The position numbers and the translations under genes were made by a program. Below the pieces are notes generated by a model. It did no database searches, was not told the DNA's origin, and saw nothing but the letters and a program-made list of their open reading frames with translations. From Acidobacteriaceae bacterium (GTDB lineage: Bacteria > Acidobacteriota > Terriglobia > Terriglobales > Acidobacteriaceae), in contig PLKY01000197.1 of the NCBI GenBank assembly GCA_003140785.1, forward strand, positions 30,360 through 69,298: a stretch of 38,939 nt of DNA. Direction: 5' to 3'. Numbering within the stretch: the stretch's first letter is position 1; every line of letters starts with the position of its first letter. Shown piece by piece: positions 1 through 6,635 of this stretch.

Positions 1-780
1 AGTGAGCTCAAGAGCCCGCGCGCATGGGAGAAGTTCTTCTGGCCGATTTTAGCCGCACTGGTCGTGCTGTGCGTCTGGCACTATGCCGTCGTGGGTACAG
101 GCACAAAGGTCTTCCCGTCGCCACTCAGCGTCGAGAAAGGAATATCCGAGCTATCGCACAAGCACGTACTTTGGGCCGATATTGCCGACTCCCTGCGCCG
201 TGTGGCAATCGGGTATGGCGCAGCAGTTGTGATCGGAATTCCCCTGGGCCTGTGCCTCGGGTGGTTTCCCGCCGCAAATCAGGTCGTGAACCCCTTACTG
301 CAGATTCTGCGGCCCATCAGTCCCATCGCATGGATTCCCGTGGCCATCATCTTCTTCGGCATCGGCGATCCTGCTGCAATCTTCCTGGTTTTTCTCGGAT
401 CCTTCTTTCCCATTGTCGTTGCCGCTGTGGGAGGGGTGTCGAGCGTGCCGCTCATCTTCAGGCGCGCCGGGCGCAACTTCGGTTTGTCGAATTTCCAACT
501 GCTGCGCAAGATTGTCTTCCCCGCCGCACTTCCTCAAATCCTCATCGGCTTGCGCATCGCGCTCGGCATCGCTTGGCTCGTTGTCGTCGCAGGCGAAATG
601 ATTGCAGTGGATTCGGGCCTCGGTTACCTCGTCATCGACTCGCGCAACTCCGGTAAACGCTACGACCTCGTCGTCGCCGCGATGCTTATGATCGGGGTCC
701 TTGGCCTCCTTCTCGATGTTGCCTTCCGGCGCCTCGAGAAATTGAAGACTGTCCGCTGGGGGTTCCGGAATGCAACTTAG
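1..780 (+). CDS. ABC transporter permease, NitT/TauT/SsuC family (5' truncated by window edge)
   Basis: Frame +1 is open from base 1 (SELKSPRAWEKFFWPILAALVVLCVWHYAVVG...) to the stop at 780. BPD-permease pattern: DSLRRVAIGYGAAVVIGIPLGLCLGW and an EAA-like loop, LRKIVFPAALPQILIGLRIALGIAWLVVVAGEM. The supplied ORF (64..780) starts at an internal GTG. Confidence 0.9.
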   Translation, partial: SELKSPRAWEKFFWPILAALVVLCVWHYAVVGTGTKVFPSPLSVEKGISELSHKHVLWADIADSLRRVAIGYGAAVVIGIPLGLCLGWFPAANQVVNPLLQILRPISPIAWIPVAIIFFGIGDPAAIFLVFLGSFFPIVVAAVGGVSSVPLIFRRAGRNFGLSNFQLLRKIVFPAALPQILIGLRIALGIAWLVVVAGEMIAVDSGLGYLVIDSRNSGKRYDLVVAAMLMIGVLGLLLDVAFRRLEKLKTVRWGFRNAT

Positions 781-1828
781 AACCAAGGCAATCCTGCTGG
801 TGGTTGCGTGGCTGGTGCTGATTTCGGCCTTGCATTCGTATCTCAACGTCAACTGGGCCGCTGTTCTCAACGACTATCGTCCGATCGAGAAACGTAAGAT
901 CATCGTGGCATATCTTCCAGTCACCTGCCAGCTGACTTGCCCCGTGACCGATTACATCTCGAAGTATTCGACGTCGGGCGAAGAATTTCTGCCCAGAATG
1001 TTTCAGGGATTTCCGGAGATGAAAGAGGCTCTCATCTCCAATCGCGTGCAGGCGGCCTTCATCGTCGCCCCCATGGCGCTTGCTCTCAAAGCCCAGGGAG
1101 TTCCAATCAAAGTTGTGTATCTCGGCCACCGGTATGGCAGCGCGGTTGTGGTGCGCAAGGATGGTCCAATCAAAACATTCGCCGACATGCGCGGAAAGAC
1201 CATCGCGATTCCAAGCCGCTTCTCGGATGAACGCCTCCTGCTTTTCCGCGCGATGAAGATTTGGGGAATCAAGCCAACCGAGATCAAAATGCTTGAGATG
1301 GCGCCGCCGGATGTTTCCGGCGCATTAGCCGCTCATGCCATCGACGCTTTTGTGATGGGTGAACCTTTTCCGTCGCAGGCGGAGATGGCTGGATACGGCC
1401 GCGTACTCTTCCAGGCCCGAGAATACTGGCCGGATTACATGTCGTGCATCCTAGTCGTACGCCAGGACCTGATCGATCGCCGGCCAGACATCGTGCAGGT
1501 GCTGGTAGATGGGATCGCACGCTCTGGACTCTGGCTCGATACCAGCAAGCCGCACCGCGAACAGGCAGCCGACTTTGTCGGCCGCTTTTATTACAACCAG
1601 AAACCTGCGCTGCTGCGCTGGGCGTTGACCAAGCCGCTCGACCGCGTTGTCTACAGCCCGCTCGCTCCCAGAAAAGCAGACTTCGACCTGGTACGCGACA
1701 TGATGATCGAAACCGGCGTGCTGAACAAGAAACTCGAATTCAGCGAATACACCGATACACGCTTTTCAGACAAGTCCAGCATTGAAACACCGTGGAGATA
1801 CGAAGCAGCAACCGGCTCAGCCCAGTAG
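770..1828 (+). CDS. ABC transporter substrate-binding protein, NrtA/SsuA/TauA (NMT1-like) family, N-terminal membrane anchor
   Basis: 352 aa; 11 bp overlap with permease. N-terminal hydrophobic helix (AILLVVAWLVLISAL) without a lipobox; YLP...MFQGFPEMKEALISNRVQAAFIVAPMALALKAQGVPIKVVYLGH...TFADMRGKTIAIPSRFSDERLLL is typical of this family. Confidence 0.87.
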   Translation: MQLRTKAILLVVAWLVLISALHSYLNVNWAAVLNDYRPIEKRKIIVAYLPVTCQLTCPVTDYISKYSTSGEEFLPRMFQGFPEMKEALISNRVQAAFIVAPMALALKAQGVPIKVVYLGHRYGSAVVVRKDGPIKTFADMRGKTIAIPSRFSDERLLLFRAMKIWGIKPTEIKMLEMAPPDVSGALAAHAIDAFVMGEPFPSQAEMAGYGRVLFQAREYWPDYMSCILVVRQDLIDRRPDIVQVLVDGIARSGLWLDTSKPHREQAADFVGRFYYNQKPALLRWALTKPLDRVVYSPLAPRKADFDLVRDMMIETGVLNKKLEFSEYTDTRFSDKSSIETPWRYEAATGSAQ

Positions 1829-1871
1829 CCGATCGCGAATCGCAGCTCGAGAATCACGCCAGGAGAAGCCC

Positions 1872-2177
1872 ATGTTTCGCAGACAATTCATGCAGATCGT
1901 CGCTCTCACAAGCGTAGGCGCGCTCAATCCAATCGAGTCAATGGCCGCCGGCGCCCGTACCACCGTAATCTTTCAGGTGAAAGGCTTCACCTGCATCACA
2001 TGTGCGGTTGGGCTCGATACCTTGCTTGGCAAAGAAAAAGGGATCGTGTCGAGCCGATCAACCTATCCCGAGGGGAAAGTCACGGTCGTCTTCGATCCGA
2101 AAGAGTGCAGAGAAGAAACGATCCGAAAATTCATCGCAGAGATGGGCTTCTCCGTCGTCAGCAGCCATTCCGCCTGA
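1872..2177 (+). CDS. Secreted heavy-metal-associated (HMA, MerP-like) domain protein
   Basis: Start MFRRQFMQIVALTSVGALNPIESMAAGA looks like a signal peptide; AGGAG upstream at ~1861. HMA core VIFQVKGFTCITCAVGLDTLLGKEKGIVSSRSTYPEGKVTVVFDPKECREETIRKFIAEMGFSV with CxxC. The supplied ORF begins upstream at 1782. Confidence 0.82.
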   Translation: MFRRQFMQIVALTSVGALNPIESMAAGARTTVIFQVKGFTCITCAVGLDTLLGKEKGIVSSRSTYPEGKVTVVFDPKECREETIRKFIAEMGFSVVSSHSA

Positions 2178-2217
2178 AGGGCGAACGCAACTCACACCAC
2201 CGAGAAGGATATCCAAC

Positions 2218-3000
2218 ATGGAAAGCTATGCCGCATTGTCTCAGGAGTTGACTCAGTTGCTGCATCTCGAGCAGCCGCCCATCGCGATTTCATTCAGTGA
2301 CGCACCGCCCGCAGGAGTAGCGCTGTACGACGGCCAGGCGCCCGCGGGCTGCCGCTTCTGGCAGGATGCGGCCACCTCCACATTCACCACATCTGCACGC
2401 GACCATGAGTTGTGCGCCATCGGCGTGCACACGCACAACCTGCAGCCATCGCCGGCCCAACAGAAGGACCTGATGGACGCACTGAAGGTCTTTGCCGACC
2501 TCGGCTACGTCCGGCCGGAAGACGTACCGCAGATTCCTGTTCTCAAGAATCAGCCGCAGCATGTTACTTACTCCCGCCTTGCAGAAGCTCCACTTCCACC
2601 AGACCTGGTCATCCTCTTCGTTCGGCCCGATCAGACGTTGATCCTGACTGAAGCGACGCAGCAACTCGAGAACGAGAACGCTCCTGCAATGGGCCGGCCT
2701 GCGTGCGCGGTTGTGGCTCAGGTGATGAACACGGGACGGCCGGCGATGAGCCTTGGCTGCTGCGGTGCGCGCGCCTATCTCGACAATTTCGCTGACACGA
2801 CGGCGATCTTTGCGATTCCCGGGTCAAAGCTGGAATCCTACGTCGAACGCATCCGAGTTCTCACCAACGCCAACACGGTCTTGAGCCAGTTCCACCAGAT
2901 GCGCCGGCGCGATGTCGCTGCAGGCAATCGCCCGAGCATTCAGGAATCCCTCACAGCTTTCGCCGCTTCGCAATCCCGAGCCGGCCAACTGGGAACTTAA
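2218..3000 (+). CDS. DUF169 / COG2043 family protein
   Basis: MESYAALSQELTQLLHLEQPPIAISFSDAPP...GCRFWQDAA...HELCAIGVHTHN...GRPACAVV...LGCCGARAYLDN matches my recollection of DUF169 layout (conserved Cys and a CC pair). ATG at 2218 inside the supplied 2002..3000 ORF. Confidence 0.78.
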   Translation: MESYAALSQELTQLLHLEQPPIAISFSDAPPAGVALYDGQAPAGCRFWQDAATSTFTTSARDHELCAIGVHTHNLQPSPAQQKDLMDALKVFADLGYVRPEDVPQIPVLKNQPQHVTYSRLAEAPLPPDLVILFVRPDQTLILTEATQQLENENAPAMGRPACAVVAQVMNTGRPAMSLGCCGARAYLDNFADTTAIFAIPGSKLESYVERIRVLTNANTVLSQFHQMRRRDVAAGNRPSIQESLTAFAASQSRAGQLGT

Positions 3001-3172: not shown

Positions 3173-3202
3173 TTGACAACTGCCATCGGTTTTTCATATG
3201 GT
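3173..3202 (+). promoter_or_regulatory. Candidate sigma70-type promoter for the GH78 gene
   Basis: TTGACA (3173-3178), 18 bp spacer, TATGGT (3197-3202), about 115 bp before the GH78 start. Confidence 0.45.
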
Positions 3203-3317: not shown

Positions 3318-6300
3318 ATGGAACAGCTATCTCTGCGCGGTATAGTTTGCTGCGCCGCCTTGAGTCTTGCGGCACTCCCTTCTTTGGGACAAGCAGTTTC
3401 CGAGCGTGGACCCGTGGAATTACGCGTTGACACGGTGCGTGCTCCGCTGGGAATCGACGATCCCGCACCTCATTTTTCTTGGCAACTGCACGACACGACA
3501 CGCGGCGCGCGCCAATCCGCCTATGAAGTCCAAGTCGCCACTACGGCCGGCGGTCTCGCTGAAGACAAAATCGACATGTGGGATAGCGGCCGAATCTCTT
3601 CCCCGCAGTCTTTGAACGTCCGCTACCAAGGTCCAGCGCTCGCACCCAGCAAACGTTATTTTTGGCGCGTGCGGGTCTGGGATGCCGCAGGAAAACCGTA
3701 CCCCGAAAGCGAAACATGCTGGTGGGAGACGGGCCTGATGACGCAGGGCGGTTGGCACGCCGCATGGATCGGCTACGAAACCAAAGAAGAAGCTGCTGTG
3801 CGCAAGGCAAGAGCCACATGGATCGCGAGCCCCGACGCAAAGACACTTGCGGCTGAGAAACTGCCTGAACGGCGTTTTGCCTATCGCGCCGCAACCACCA
3901 TCGACGGAGCTGTGCGCAGTGCCACGTTGTATGCAACGTGTGAAGACACGGTTTCTGCGTGGGTCAATGGGACCGAGATGCTGAAGGAGAATCCTCTGCC
4001 GCCCTACAAGCAAATGCCGTGGAAAAAATACGTGCGCGCGGATGTCACGAAGCAGTTGACCAATGGAACCAATTCCCTCGCCCTCGAGTGCGTGCACTAC
4101 GTTGTGAATCCGAACGGCATGGCCTCAGCGGAGGCTCCTCCTCTCAGCGCCACACTATACATCGAATATGAAGACGGAAGGACCACGACCGTTGCAAGTG
4201 AAACCGCATGGAAGTCCGCGATCCACGCGCCTGAAGGCTGGCACGAAAAGAATTTCGACGACGCAGGATGGCAGAGCGCCGTCGCATGGATGCCTGTGCC
4301 CGGACCCAATGCCGCACCTCTCGGTCATCCATGGATTCCCGATTCCGTGAAGTCACTACGCAGCAGTTTCGATGTGAGCAAAGAAATTAATTCGGCTCAA
4401 CTTTACGCGACATCAATGGGTGCGTATGAGATGTTCCTGAACGGCAAGCGCGTTAGCGAAGATCTGCTCGCACCCGGCTGGACCGACTATCGCGAGCACG
4501 TGGTGTACCAGACCTATGACGTGACCGCGATGCTCAACACCGGGAAAAATGCAATCGCGGCGTTGCTCGCGCCTGGGTGGTATTCGACGCCGCTCGAATG
4601 GTTTCAGCAACCCAACAACTATGGCGACACGCCGCCCGCGCTACGAGCGCAGCTGCGCATCGAGTACACCGACGGCAGCGTGCAATGGGTCAATAGCAGT
4701 CCCGATTGGCGAGCGGCGAATTCTGCAATTCTGCACTCCGAACTGTACGACGGCGAAACGCAGGATGCGCGCCAATTGCAGCGCGGATGGGATACTGCCG
4801 CATTCGATGCGAACGGCTGGCAGAATGCAGTTGCGATTGAACCCAAACCGGTTCCCATTGACGCACAGGACTATCCGGCGATTCGCGTCGAGACCACAGT
4901 CGCAGCAAAGTCTGTCGCCGAACCCAAGCCCGGCGTCTTTGTCTTTGATTTCGGCCAGAACCTTGCCGGCATCGAACGTGTGCGCCTCCAAGGTCCGGCA
5001 GGAACCGATGTACGCTTGCGTTTCGCAGAGATCGTGAATGATGACGGAACCATCTACACGGACAATCTGCGCACCGCAAAAGTCACCGATCACTTCATCC
5101 TCGCGGGCAACGGCATCGAAGAATTTACGCCCCAGTTCACATTTCACGGATTCCGTTACGCCGAAATCACCGGCCTTCCGTCGGCTCCCGCAAAGGACGC
5201 CGTCGTCGCCTTGGTTCTTCACACGGCCGCGCCGTGGGATGCCAAGCTCAAAACTGGCAGTCCGATGATCGACAAGCTGTGGAGCAACATCCTCTGGGGA
5301 CAACGTTCCAATTTCGTCGGCGTGCCCACAGACTGGCCGCAGCGCGATGAGCGCTTAGGCTGGATGGTGGATGCGCAGGTCTTCTGGCGAACCGCGAGCT
5401 ACAACATGGATCTTGCCGCATTCTCGCGCAAATTTGCCGGCGACATGCGCGGTACGCAGGCTGGCACTCCGTTCTACGGGATCTATGCGCCCGGCACCGT
5501 GCAAAGTGCTTCCGGCTCGGGCGCGGGATGGAGCGATGCAGGAGTCGTAATCCCGTGGACATCGTGGCTGCAGACCGGAGACACCAGCGTCATTGAACAA
5601 AACTGGGATGCGATGCACAAGTACCTTGATGCCATCGAGGCATCAAACCCCGATGGACTTTGGAAGGTCGACTCTGGAATACCATTCGGCGACTGGCTCT
5701 CGCCGGAAGGAAGAACCGACCAGGTGCTGGTGGCGACTGCTTACTGGGCCTACGACGTGACGCTGATGCGTGAAATGGCGCATGCCACTGGCCGCGTCGC
5801 CGACGAAAAGAAATACCAAGAATCATTTGCCAAGATTTGGTCGGCATTCCAGGGCAGATTCGTACACGACGATGGCTTCATCGCCGGAGCGGACAACAGT
5901 CCTTCTCCGTTCGGGCAGATCAATAATCCCAACGCAAAAAGCAAAGGTGGAGACACGCAGACCGGGTATGTTCTGGCTCTGCATATGAATCTGCTGCCTG
6001 ACTCGATTCGACCGCTGGCCGCGCAAAAACTCGTCGCCAAAATCGAAGCAAACAACGGCATGTTGGCTACCGGTTTTCTCGGCACGCCCTATCTTCTGGA
6101 AGAGCTGTCGAAGGCCGGCAAGACCGAACTCGCGTACAAACTTCTTTTGAACACGCAGTACCCATCCTGGGGCTACCTCGTGAATCACGGCGCGACTACG
6201 ATGTGGGAGCGGTGGAACGGCGATCAGATGAAAGATGACCCGAGCATGAACTCCTACAACCATTACGCCTATGGCGCGGTTGCGGATTGGCTCTACCGGT

Positions 6301-6635
6301 TTGCAGCTGGAGTGGACACCGCGTCGCTCGACGCGGGCTTCCACACCGTGTTTCTCCATCCCGTATTCAGCGCGCAATTGGGCTCGATCGCTTTCGACTA
6401 CTCCTCCGCCTACGGCCCTATCCACTCCGATTGGACAGTGGAAGGCAAGACCGCGACTTGGCATGTGAGCCTACCGGCGAATACCACAGGATGGCTGAGC
6501 GCCGATGCGGCGAAGTACAAATTGGACGGCGTTCCGCTCAGCAGGAGTCCGCAGGCCAAGGCGGCTTCTCACGAGGGCGAGTCCGGCTTTGAATTACCTG
6601 CGGGCAGTTACACCTTCCAGGCCGACGTCGATTAG
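3318..6635 (+). CDS. Secreted alpha-L-rhamnosidase, GH78
   Basis: 1105 aa with signal peptide; GH78 opening VELRVDTVRAPLGIDDPAPHFSWQL, repeated beta-sandwich/carbohydrate-binding segments (YATSMGAYEMFLNGKRVSEDLLAPGWTDYREHVVYQTYDVT), FDFGQNLAG, and catalytic region GVPTDWPQRDERLGWMVDAQVF...GDWLSPEG...NHGATTMWERWNGD. Confidence 0.95.
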   Translation: MEQLSLRGIVCCAALSLAALPSLGQAVSERGPVELRVDTVRAPLGIDDPAPHFSWQLHDTTRGARQSAYEVQVATTAGGLAEDKIDMWDSGRISSPQSLNVRYQGPALAPSKRYFWRVRVWDAAGKPYPESETCWWETGLMTQGGWHAAWIGYETKEEAAVRKARATWIASPDAKTLAAEKLPERRFAYRAATTIDGAVRSATLYATCEDTVSAWVNGTEMLKENPLPPYKQMPWKKYVRADVTKQLTNGTNSLALECVHYVVNPNGMASAEAPPLSATLYIEYEDGRTTTVASETAWKSAIHAPEGWHEKNFDDAGWQSAVAWMPVPGPNAAPLGHPWIPDSVKSLRSSFDVSKEINSAQLYATSMGAYEMFLNGKRVSEDLLAPGWTDYREHVVYQTYDVTAMLNTGKNAIAALLAPGWYSTPLEWFQQPNNYGDTPPALRAQLRIEYTDGSVQWVNSSPDWRAANSAILHSELYDGETQDARQLQRGWDTAAFDANGWQNAVAIEPKPVPIDAQDYPAIRVETTVAAKSVAEPKPGVFVFDFGQNLAGIERVRLQGPAGTDVRLRFAEIVNDDGTIYTDNLRTAKVTDHFILAGNGIEEFTPQFTFHGFRYAEITGLPSAPAKDAVVALVLHTAAPWDAKLKTGSPMIDKLWSNILWGQRSNFVGVPTDWPQRDERLGWMVDAQVFWRTASYNMDLAAFSRKFAGDMRGTQAGTPFYGIYAPGTVQSASGSGAGWSDAGVVIPWTSWLQTGDTSVIEQNWDAMHKYLDAIEASNPDGLWKVDSGIPFGDWLSPEGRTDQVLVATAYWAYDVTLMREMAHATGRVADEKKYQESFAKIWSAFQGRFVHDDGFIAGADNSPSPFGQINNPNAKSKGGDTQTGYVLALHMNLLPDSIRPLAAQKLVAKIEANNGMLATGFLGTPYLLEELSKAGKTELAYKLLLNTQYPSWGYLVNHGATTMWERWNGDQMKDDPSMNSYNHYAYGAVADWLYRFAAGVDTASLDAGFHTVFLHPVFSAQLGSIAFDYSSAYGPIHSDWTVEGKTATWHVSLPANTTGWLSADAAKYKLDGVPLSRSPQAKAASHEGESGFELPAGSYTFQADVD

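Follow-up and report, generated by a model that had tools for sequence, protein, structure and literature searches.

Organization of the operon

The window, by which we mean the whole stretch of 38,939 nucleotides analyzed here, begins with four tightly packed genes on the same strand, encoding a permease, a binding protein (SBP), a small HMA-domain protein and a DUF169 protein (Table 1). An earlier note, made from the letters of the sequence, had described this arrangement, and the coordinates agree with it down to the overlap of exactly 11 bases between the permease and SBP genes. The note had also predicted that an ATPase gene should lie just left of the window: it was found there, with a second permease gene ahead of it. 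The operon thus extends beyond the window and runs in the order permease 1, ATPase, permease 2, SBP, Tat-type HMA protein, DUF169 protein. Two 2-base N joins, one inside the ATPase gene and one at the window edge, truncate the ATPase and the 5' end of permease 2.

Table 1. Genes and sites of the operon. Positions are those of the window unless prefixed G000:C337.
Feature	Position	Strand	Remarks
Permease 1 (further permease)	G000:C337 28951-29709		Precedes ATPase
ATPase	G000:C337 29709 to ~30357		Directly left of window; two 'nn' joins
Permease 2 (BPD_transp_1)	1..780	+	PF00528, 79.5 bits (Pfam); 5' end lost at 2-N scaffold gap, window start
SBP, NMT1-type	770..1828	+	PF13379, 92.6 bits; N-terminal helix anchor (residues 3-25), no lipobox
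SBP C53 (926-928) and C57 (938-940) codons, in PVTCQLTCPVTD	926..940	+	C53 is TGA in 16/96 relatives; C57 invariant
SBP His120 codon, candidate site residue	1127..1129	+	His in 94/96, Asn in two outgroup rows
SBP Cys226 codon, candidate site residue	1445..1447	+	Cys in 94/96, Asn in two outgroup rows
HMA-domain protein, small, predicted exported	1872..2177	+	Twin-arginine-type signal; profile matches
HMA metal-site motif TCITC (C41, C44)	1992..2003	+	G[FY][ST]CxxC in 46/47
DUF169 protein, no export signal	2218..3000	+	PF02596, 77.7 bits (cut-off 27)
DUF169 C181-C182	2758..2763	+	C182 confined to operon-linked subfamily

An NMT1-type SBP, BPD_transp_1 permeases and an ATPase encoded in one operon make up an ABC importer of the NitT/TauT type, the type to which the SBP had been assigned; that it is anchored by a helix and carries no lipobox likewise holds. 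The cysteines named in the earlier note – C53 and C57 of the SBP, C41 and C44 of the HMA protein, C181 and C182 of the DUF169 protein – are all present. No internal promoter or terminator above chance was found in the operon; a promoter-like site (~3173-3202) lies past the DUF169 gene, ahead of a gene for a multi-domain alpha-L-rhamnosidase (3318-6635) that is likely to form a separate transcription unit.

Conservation and gene neighborhood

A close SBP sequence is present in 14 of the 150 genomes of the family, and a 48% relative is found in one more (G028). When 84,980 species were scanned, 80 loci emerged; by title almost all of them are Acidobacteriota, with a few from Myxococcota (where the transporter is rare, 2/237) or other groups. 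Acidicapsa dinghuensis and Granulicella sp. L46 are cultured carriers. Wherever the contig permits, permease 1, the ATPase, permease 2 and the SBP are almost always found together, the visible exceptions in the profile scan being L084 and L086. Downstream sequence of 1.3 kb or more is available for 51 close loci; in 40 of these the HMA gene comes next, and HMA followed by DUF169 is found in 27; DUF169 without HMA never occurs among them. Neither gene is present in any of 19 deeper loci examined: the four-gene core therefore works without them. This gene order, recurring in dozens of genomes, is far beyond chance, and the co-occurrence elsewhere that the earlier note had proposed as a check is thereby confirmed.

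Within the family, strong matches to the HMA protein (E at most 3e-35) occur in 12 of the 14 transporter genomes and in none of the 136 other genomes (Fisher P = 5e-16). Since strong matches are found in exactly these 12 genomes, all of them transporter carriers, the HMA protein is a dedicated component of the transporter system.

Several other genes adjoin the operon in particular loci. About 30 loci carry, on one side or the other and on either strand, a block of genes of TPR/CRTAC1-like, ASPIC/UnbV-like and membrane type, the last RnfD/NqrB-like by eye (for example L071:1288-7489), and one locus carries a degenerate second SBP copy in fragments (L044:7175-7883) beside the HMA gene and near an intact operon. 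Genes resembling flavin monooxygenases directly follow the SBP gene in a few loci (L108:11039-14700, L084 and L086), as does, in L108, a gene for a PLP-dependent enzyme; both kinds of enzyme were considered as operon parts and rejected as too scattered.

Selenocysteine and cysteine exchange at position 53 of the binding protein

In the window the SBP carries the motif PVT-C-QLTCP. In deeper loci the SBP frame looked split precisely at C53; reading through the TGA at this point gives PVT-U-HL[AT]CPVTD in 12 of 92 motif-bearing loci. Four Sec-type loci were added by a search of the phylum: L167, and L174, L175 and L176, which belong to two further subfamilies, such that Sec-type SBPs span three. 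Across 96 aligned sequences position 53 is Cys in 78, Sec in 16 and Thr in two, and C57 is found in all 96: the conservation asked of the two cysteines by the earlier note is thus evident, provided that Sec is allowed at the first. Apart from TGA the codon is TGC or TGT, and never TAA or TAG in the aligned set. Each Sec-type sequence contains exactly one TGA in a frame that is otherwise intact. Because TGA also serves as the normal stop of adjacent genes (22 of 29 neighboring operon genes), the code is not reassigned.

All 12 Sec-type genomes tested have a SelB that exceeds the curated cut-off, and nine of them a tRNA-Sec of more than 60 bits; SelB is also present in 18 of 24 Cys-type genomes. 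Folding energies compared to synonymous shuffles gave no overall excess of SECIS structure, while clear SECIS-like stems follow the TGA in L174, L175 and L176. On the tree, seven changes between Sec and Cys are needed, at least five of them forced by the starred branches; in the Terriglobia branch, which includes the window, position 53 is Cys throughout. Judged by its sequences, the SBP is a selenocysteine/cysteine family, and the exchange singles out one residue as central to the site. A UxxxC binding protein is not among the 119 selenoprotein families listed in a 2026 review, which include SaoX (UxP) and SaoB (CUxxT) (PMC13188914, Table 1). Gene callers probably report the SBP of this candidate selenoprotein family as two separate open reading frames or as a pseudogene.

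A candidate site in the binding protein

The nearest solved relative of the SBP, both by sequence (profile, E = 9.7e-36) and by fold (Foldseek, E = 1.6e-22), is 3UN6, an NMT1-type binding protein of S. aureus that is zinc-bound by its title. At the residues aligned with 53, 120 and 226 it has His, His and Cys: H120 and C226 of the SBP are thus kept, whereas His stands in place of C/U53 and Leu in place of C57, leaving 3UN6 without the second cysteine. In the SBP, 94 of the 96 sequences retain C53(U), H120 and C226, and the outgroup L177/L178 has all three changed (to T, N and N); this joint loss is one event and is therefore suggestive only.

In this fold it is the loop following the first strand that borders the ligand cleft. 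The AlphaFold model of the SBP (m361c0124242b) is of modest confidence (mean pLDDT 65.9, with loop 51-56 below 50), and with the loop ill-defined the exposure of position 53 to the cleft rests on the fold family. It would appear that a capture site is formed in the cleft by Cys/Sec53, next to which lies Cys57, together with His120 and Cys226.

The HMA and DUF169 proteins

The HMA protein had been described as a secreted HMA domain with FTCITC. The cysteines and the domain identity stand; the export signal, however, is of the twin-arginine type, with RRxF and a hydrophobic stretch in 46 of 47 HMA proteins, from which Tat export is predicted. By itself the sequence from the window scores 18.6 against a Pfam gathering score of 24.8, that is, below it; as a profile, the alignment strongly matches the HMA domains of Cu-ATPases (to E = 1e-56) and also MerP. 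Like MerP and MerTP it is an HMA domain with CxxC, in this case predicted to be exported, and the MerTP fusion is its best NCBIfam match. It nevertheless scores far under the MerP and MerTP cut-offs (26.2 bits for the MerP model TIGR02052, cut-off 92.55), and differs in its Tat-type signal, in its linkage to an ABC importer and in its GF[TS]CxxC motif, where the usual motif is GMTCxxC.

The CC pair reported for the DUF169 protein is present, but of its cysteines four are common to the whole DUF169 family, shared with unlinked members, and of the pair only C182 is specific to the operon. Where DUF169 (PF02596) at large has GC[IVAT]GNR, the operon branch has CC: GCCGAR is found in 27 of 28 operon-linked proteins, the remaining one giving no match to the pattern. 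A model of modest confidence gave no meaningful PDB match, and none was found by sequence either. No neighbor is shared by the DUF169 homologues found elsewhere in Acidobacteriota; the operon gives this widespread family a concrete context.

Comparison with the SAO system and other transporters

The nearest published system is SAO, the selenocysteine-assisted organometallic system, whose transporter consists of SaoA, SaoP and SaoX (Haft & Gwadz 2023, as cited in PMC13188914). The comparison was made by means of NCBIfam models and published Sec motifs, with SaoX and SaoB taken by description. The ATPase (scored from L118, the window's own being interrupted by gaps) gives 249.1 bits with SaoA (NF040729, cut-off 360) and the permeases give 170.8 (window) and 157.7 and 160.1 (L118) with SaoP (NF040733, cut-off 295): both fall short of the cut-off, yet in both cases the SAO model is the best of all NCBIfam models. 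The SBP matches SaoX (NF040735, cut-off 300) at 49.8 bits in the window and 47.6-66.3 in Sec-type relatives, again below the cut-off, and its best broad NCBIfam match is the sulfonate model SsuA (TIGR01728; 127.8 bits, below the cut-off of 163.5). No match to SaoB was found. The SAO trait of selenocysteine in a transporter component is present in relatives (16/96 SBPs), the window having Cys.

The likeness to SAO thus lies in the ATPase and permeases, in the SaoX match of the SBP and in the Sec/Cys position of the binding protein. The differences are that every score is under its cut-off, that there are two distinct permeases and additional Tat-HMA and DUF169 proteins, that most genomes lack a MerB-like lyase, and that the Sec motif is UxxxC as against UxP in SaoX and CUxxT in SaoB (PMC13188914, Table 1). 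As far as can be judged, the transporter works like that of SAO, while lying outside SAO by the curated cut-offs.

A second likeness is to NitT/TauT transporters found beside clade B Ni-CODH in other bacteria. These have a 3UN6-like binding protein, 3UN6 itself being called a metal-binding protein, and import of a metal, namely Ni, was proposed for them; no HMA or DUF169 protein or Sec was reported (PMC6344411). The description of the module as undescribed therefore needs tempering, given that its ATPase and permeases are nearest SAO and that NitT/TauT transporters of the 3UN6-like kind have already been proposed to import metal (PMC6344411).

An organomercurial lyase (MerB/SaoL-like) was considered as a partner of the transporter and rejected, because MerB is no commoner in transporter genomes (2/32) than in others (3/32) and is thus not associated; nor was any metal-resistance gene found to accompany the transporter. 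Three MerB-family matches with one in-frame TGA each (L179, L180 and L183; G055:C75, G049:C20 and G150:C318) are candidate selenocysteine MerB/SaoL-like proteins in Acidobacteriota.

Proposed function and alternatives

We propose, with a probability of about one half, that the operon encodes an SAO-like importer of NitT/TauT architecture, specific for soft, thiol-loving cargo. A metal(loid) species of this kind, or an organometal, would be bound by the anchored SBP at C/U53, H120 and C226, close to C57, and passed on to the two-permease ABC importer: this capture-and-delivery step is supported. The Terriglobia branch, always with Cys53, would have gained the dedicated, Tat-exported HMA protein (CxxC), which probably exchanges metal with the SBP outside the cell, giving or taking. 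A subset would also have gained the cytosolic DUF169 protein with its extra cysteine, which may accept the imported species inside. The earlier note had suggested capture of a soft-metal complex or metallated organic ligand: co-occurrence and conserved cysteines speak in its favor, and Cys/Sec exchange and the zinc-bound 3UN6 strengthen the case for a metal or organometal as the likely ligand. Against it stand the modest confidence of the SBP model, the lead of SsuA (below its cut-off) among broad SBP models, the deeper loci lacking HMA and DUF169, the want of an accompanying MerB or metal-resistance gene, and SECIS signals that are not enriched overall. A wider formulation, to which we give somewhat less credence, is that these proteins are an uncatalogued selenoprotein family of ABC SBPs that import a soft metal or organometal by means of a Sec/Cys cleft ligand, one lineage of which combines Cys with a dedicated Tat-HMA metallochaperone and a DUF169 acceptor, the whole being a lyase-free second SAO-like branch. 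Importers of soft metals and organometals are barely known, and bear on copper nutrition and on the entry of mercury and arsenic into cells.

The main rival, appreciably less probable, is uptake of an organosulfur or organoselenium compound (a disulfide, thiosulfonate, sulfinate or polysulfide), captured by thiol/selenol exchange at C/U53-C57, with the HMA and DUF169 proteins handling thiols and not metal. NitT/TauT relatives bind taurine and sulfonates, redox sites commonly show Cys/Sec exchange, and the fold is shared by the sulfinate desulfinase DszB, whose active-site Cys27 sits in a CPV motif on the loop equivalent to that of the SBP. The sulfur reading is also kept alive by the Desulfovibrio 'nitrate cluster', in which a DUF169 gene lies by a TauE permease and a PtxB-like binding protein and for which thiosulfate uptake was suggested (PMC4001038). 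It sits poorly, however, with an HMA protein with CxxC that is dedicated to the transporter, with a nearest structure that is zinc-bound with His/His/Cys at the equivalent positions, and with closest named relatives that are organometal components. An ordinary importer of small anions or organics, its cysteines forming a structural or regulatory disulfide and the HMA and DUF169 proteins being passengers, could account for the SsuA match and for a core without either protein in the 19 deeper loci; it is improbable nonetheless, as repeated Sec at C53 is costly and unexpected for a structural disulfide, and strong HMA matches are confined to transporter genomes.

That the system is a true SAO member, importing and breaking down organometals such as organomercury, we consider more doubtful again. 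Its nearest equivalog-level models are indeed SaoA, SaoP and SaoX, and the binding protein may hold selenocysteine as in SAO (PMC13188914); but the cut-offs, the UxxxC motif and the missing SaoB all speak against membership, and with MerB distributed as it is the lyase step is largely refuted. Least probable of all is high-affinity uptake of selenium for selenocysteine synthesis. A binding protein that may itself hold Sec would suit it, as would L124, where SelA- and SelB-like genes lie directly ahead of permease 1, in the stretch between 7 and 2.7 kb before the SBP motif. Within the family, however, SelB is present in six of 14 transporter genomes compared to 77 of 136 others, and for this want of association the reading was rejected; the window's own genome and the complete genome L071 also have no SelB over the cut-off. 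The same stretch of L124 contains an AhpD-like gene and a deiodinase-like gene, the latter apparently split, possibly at a Sec codon.
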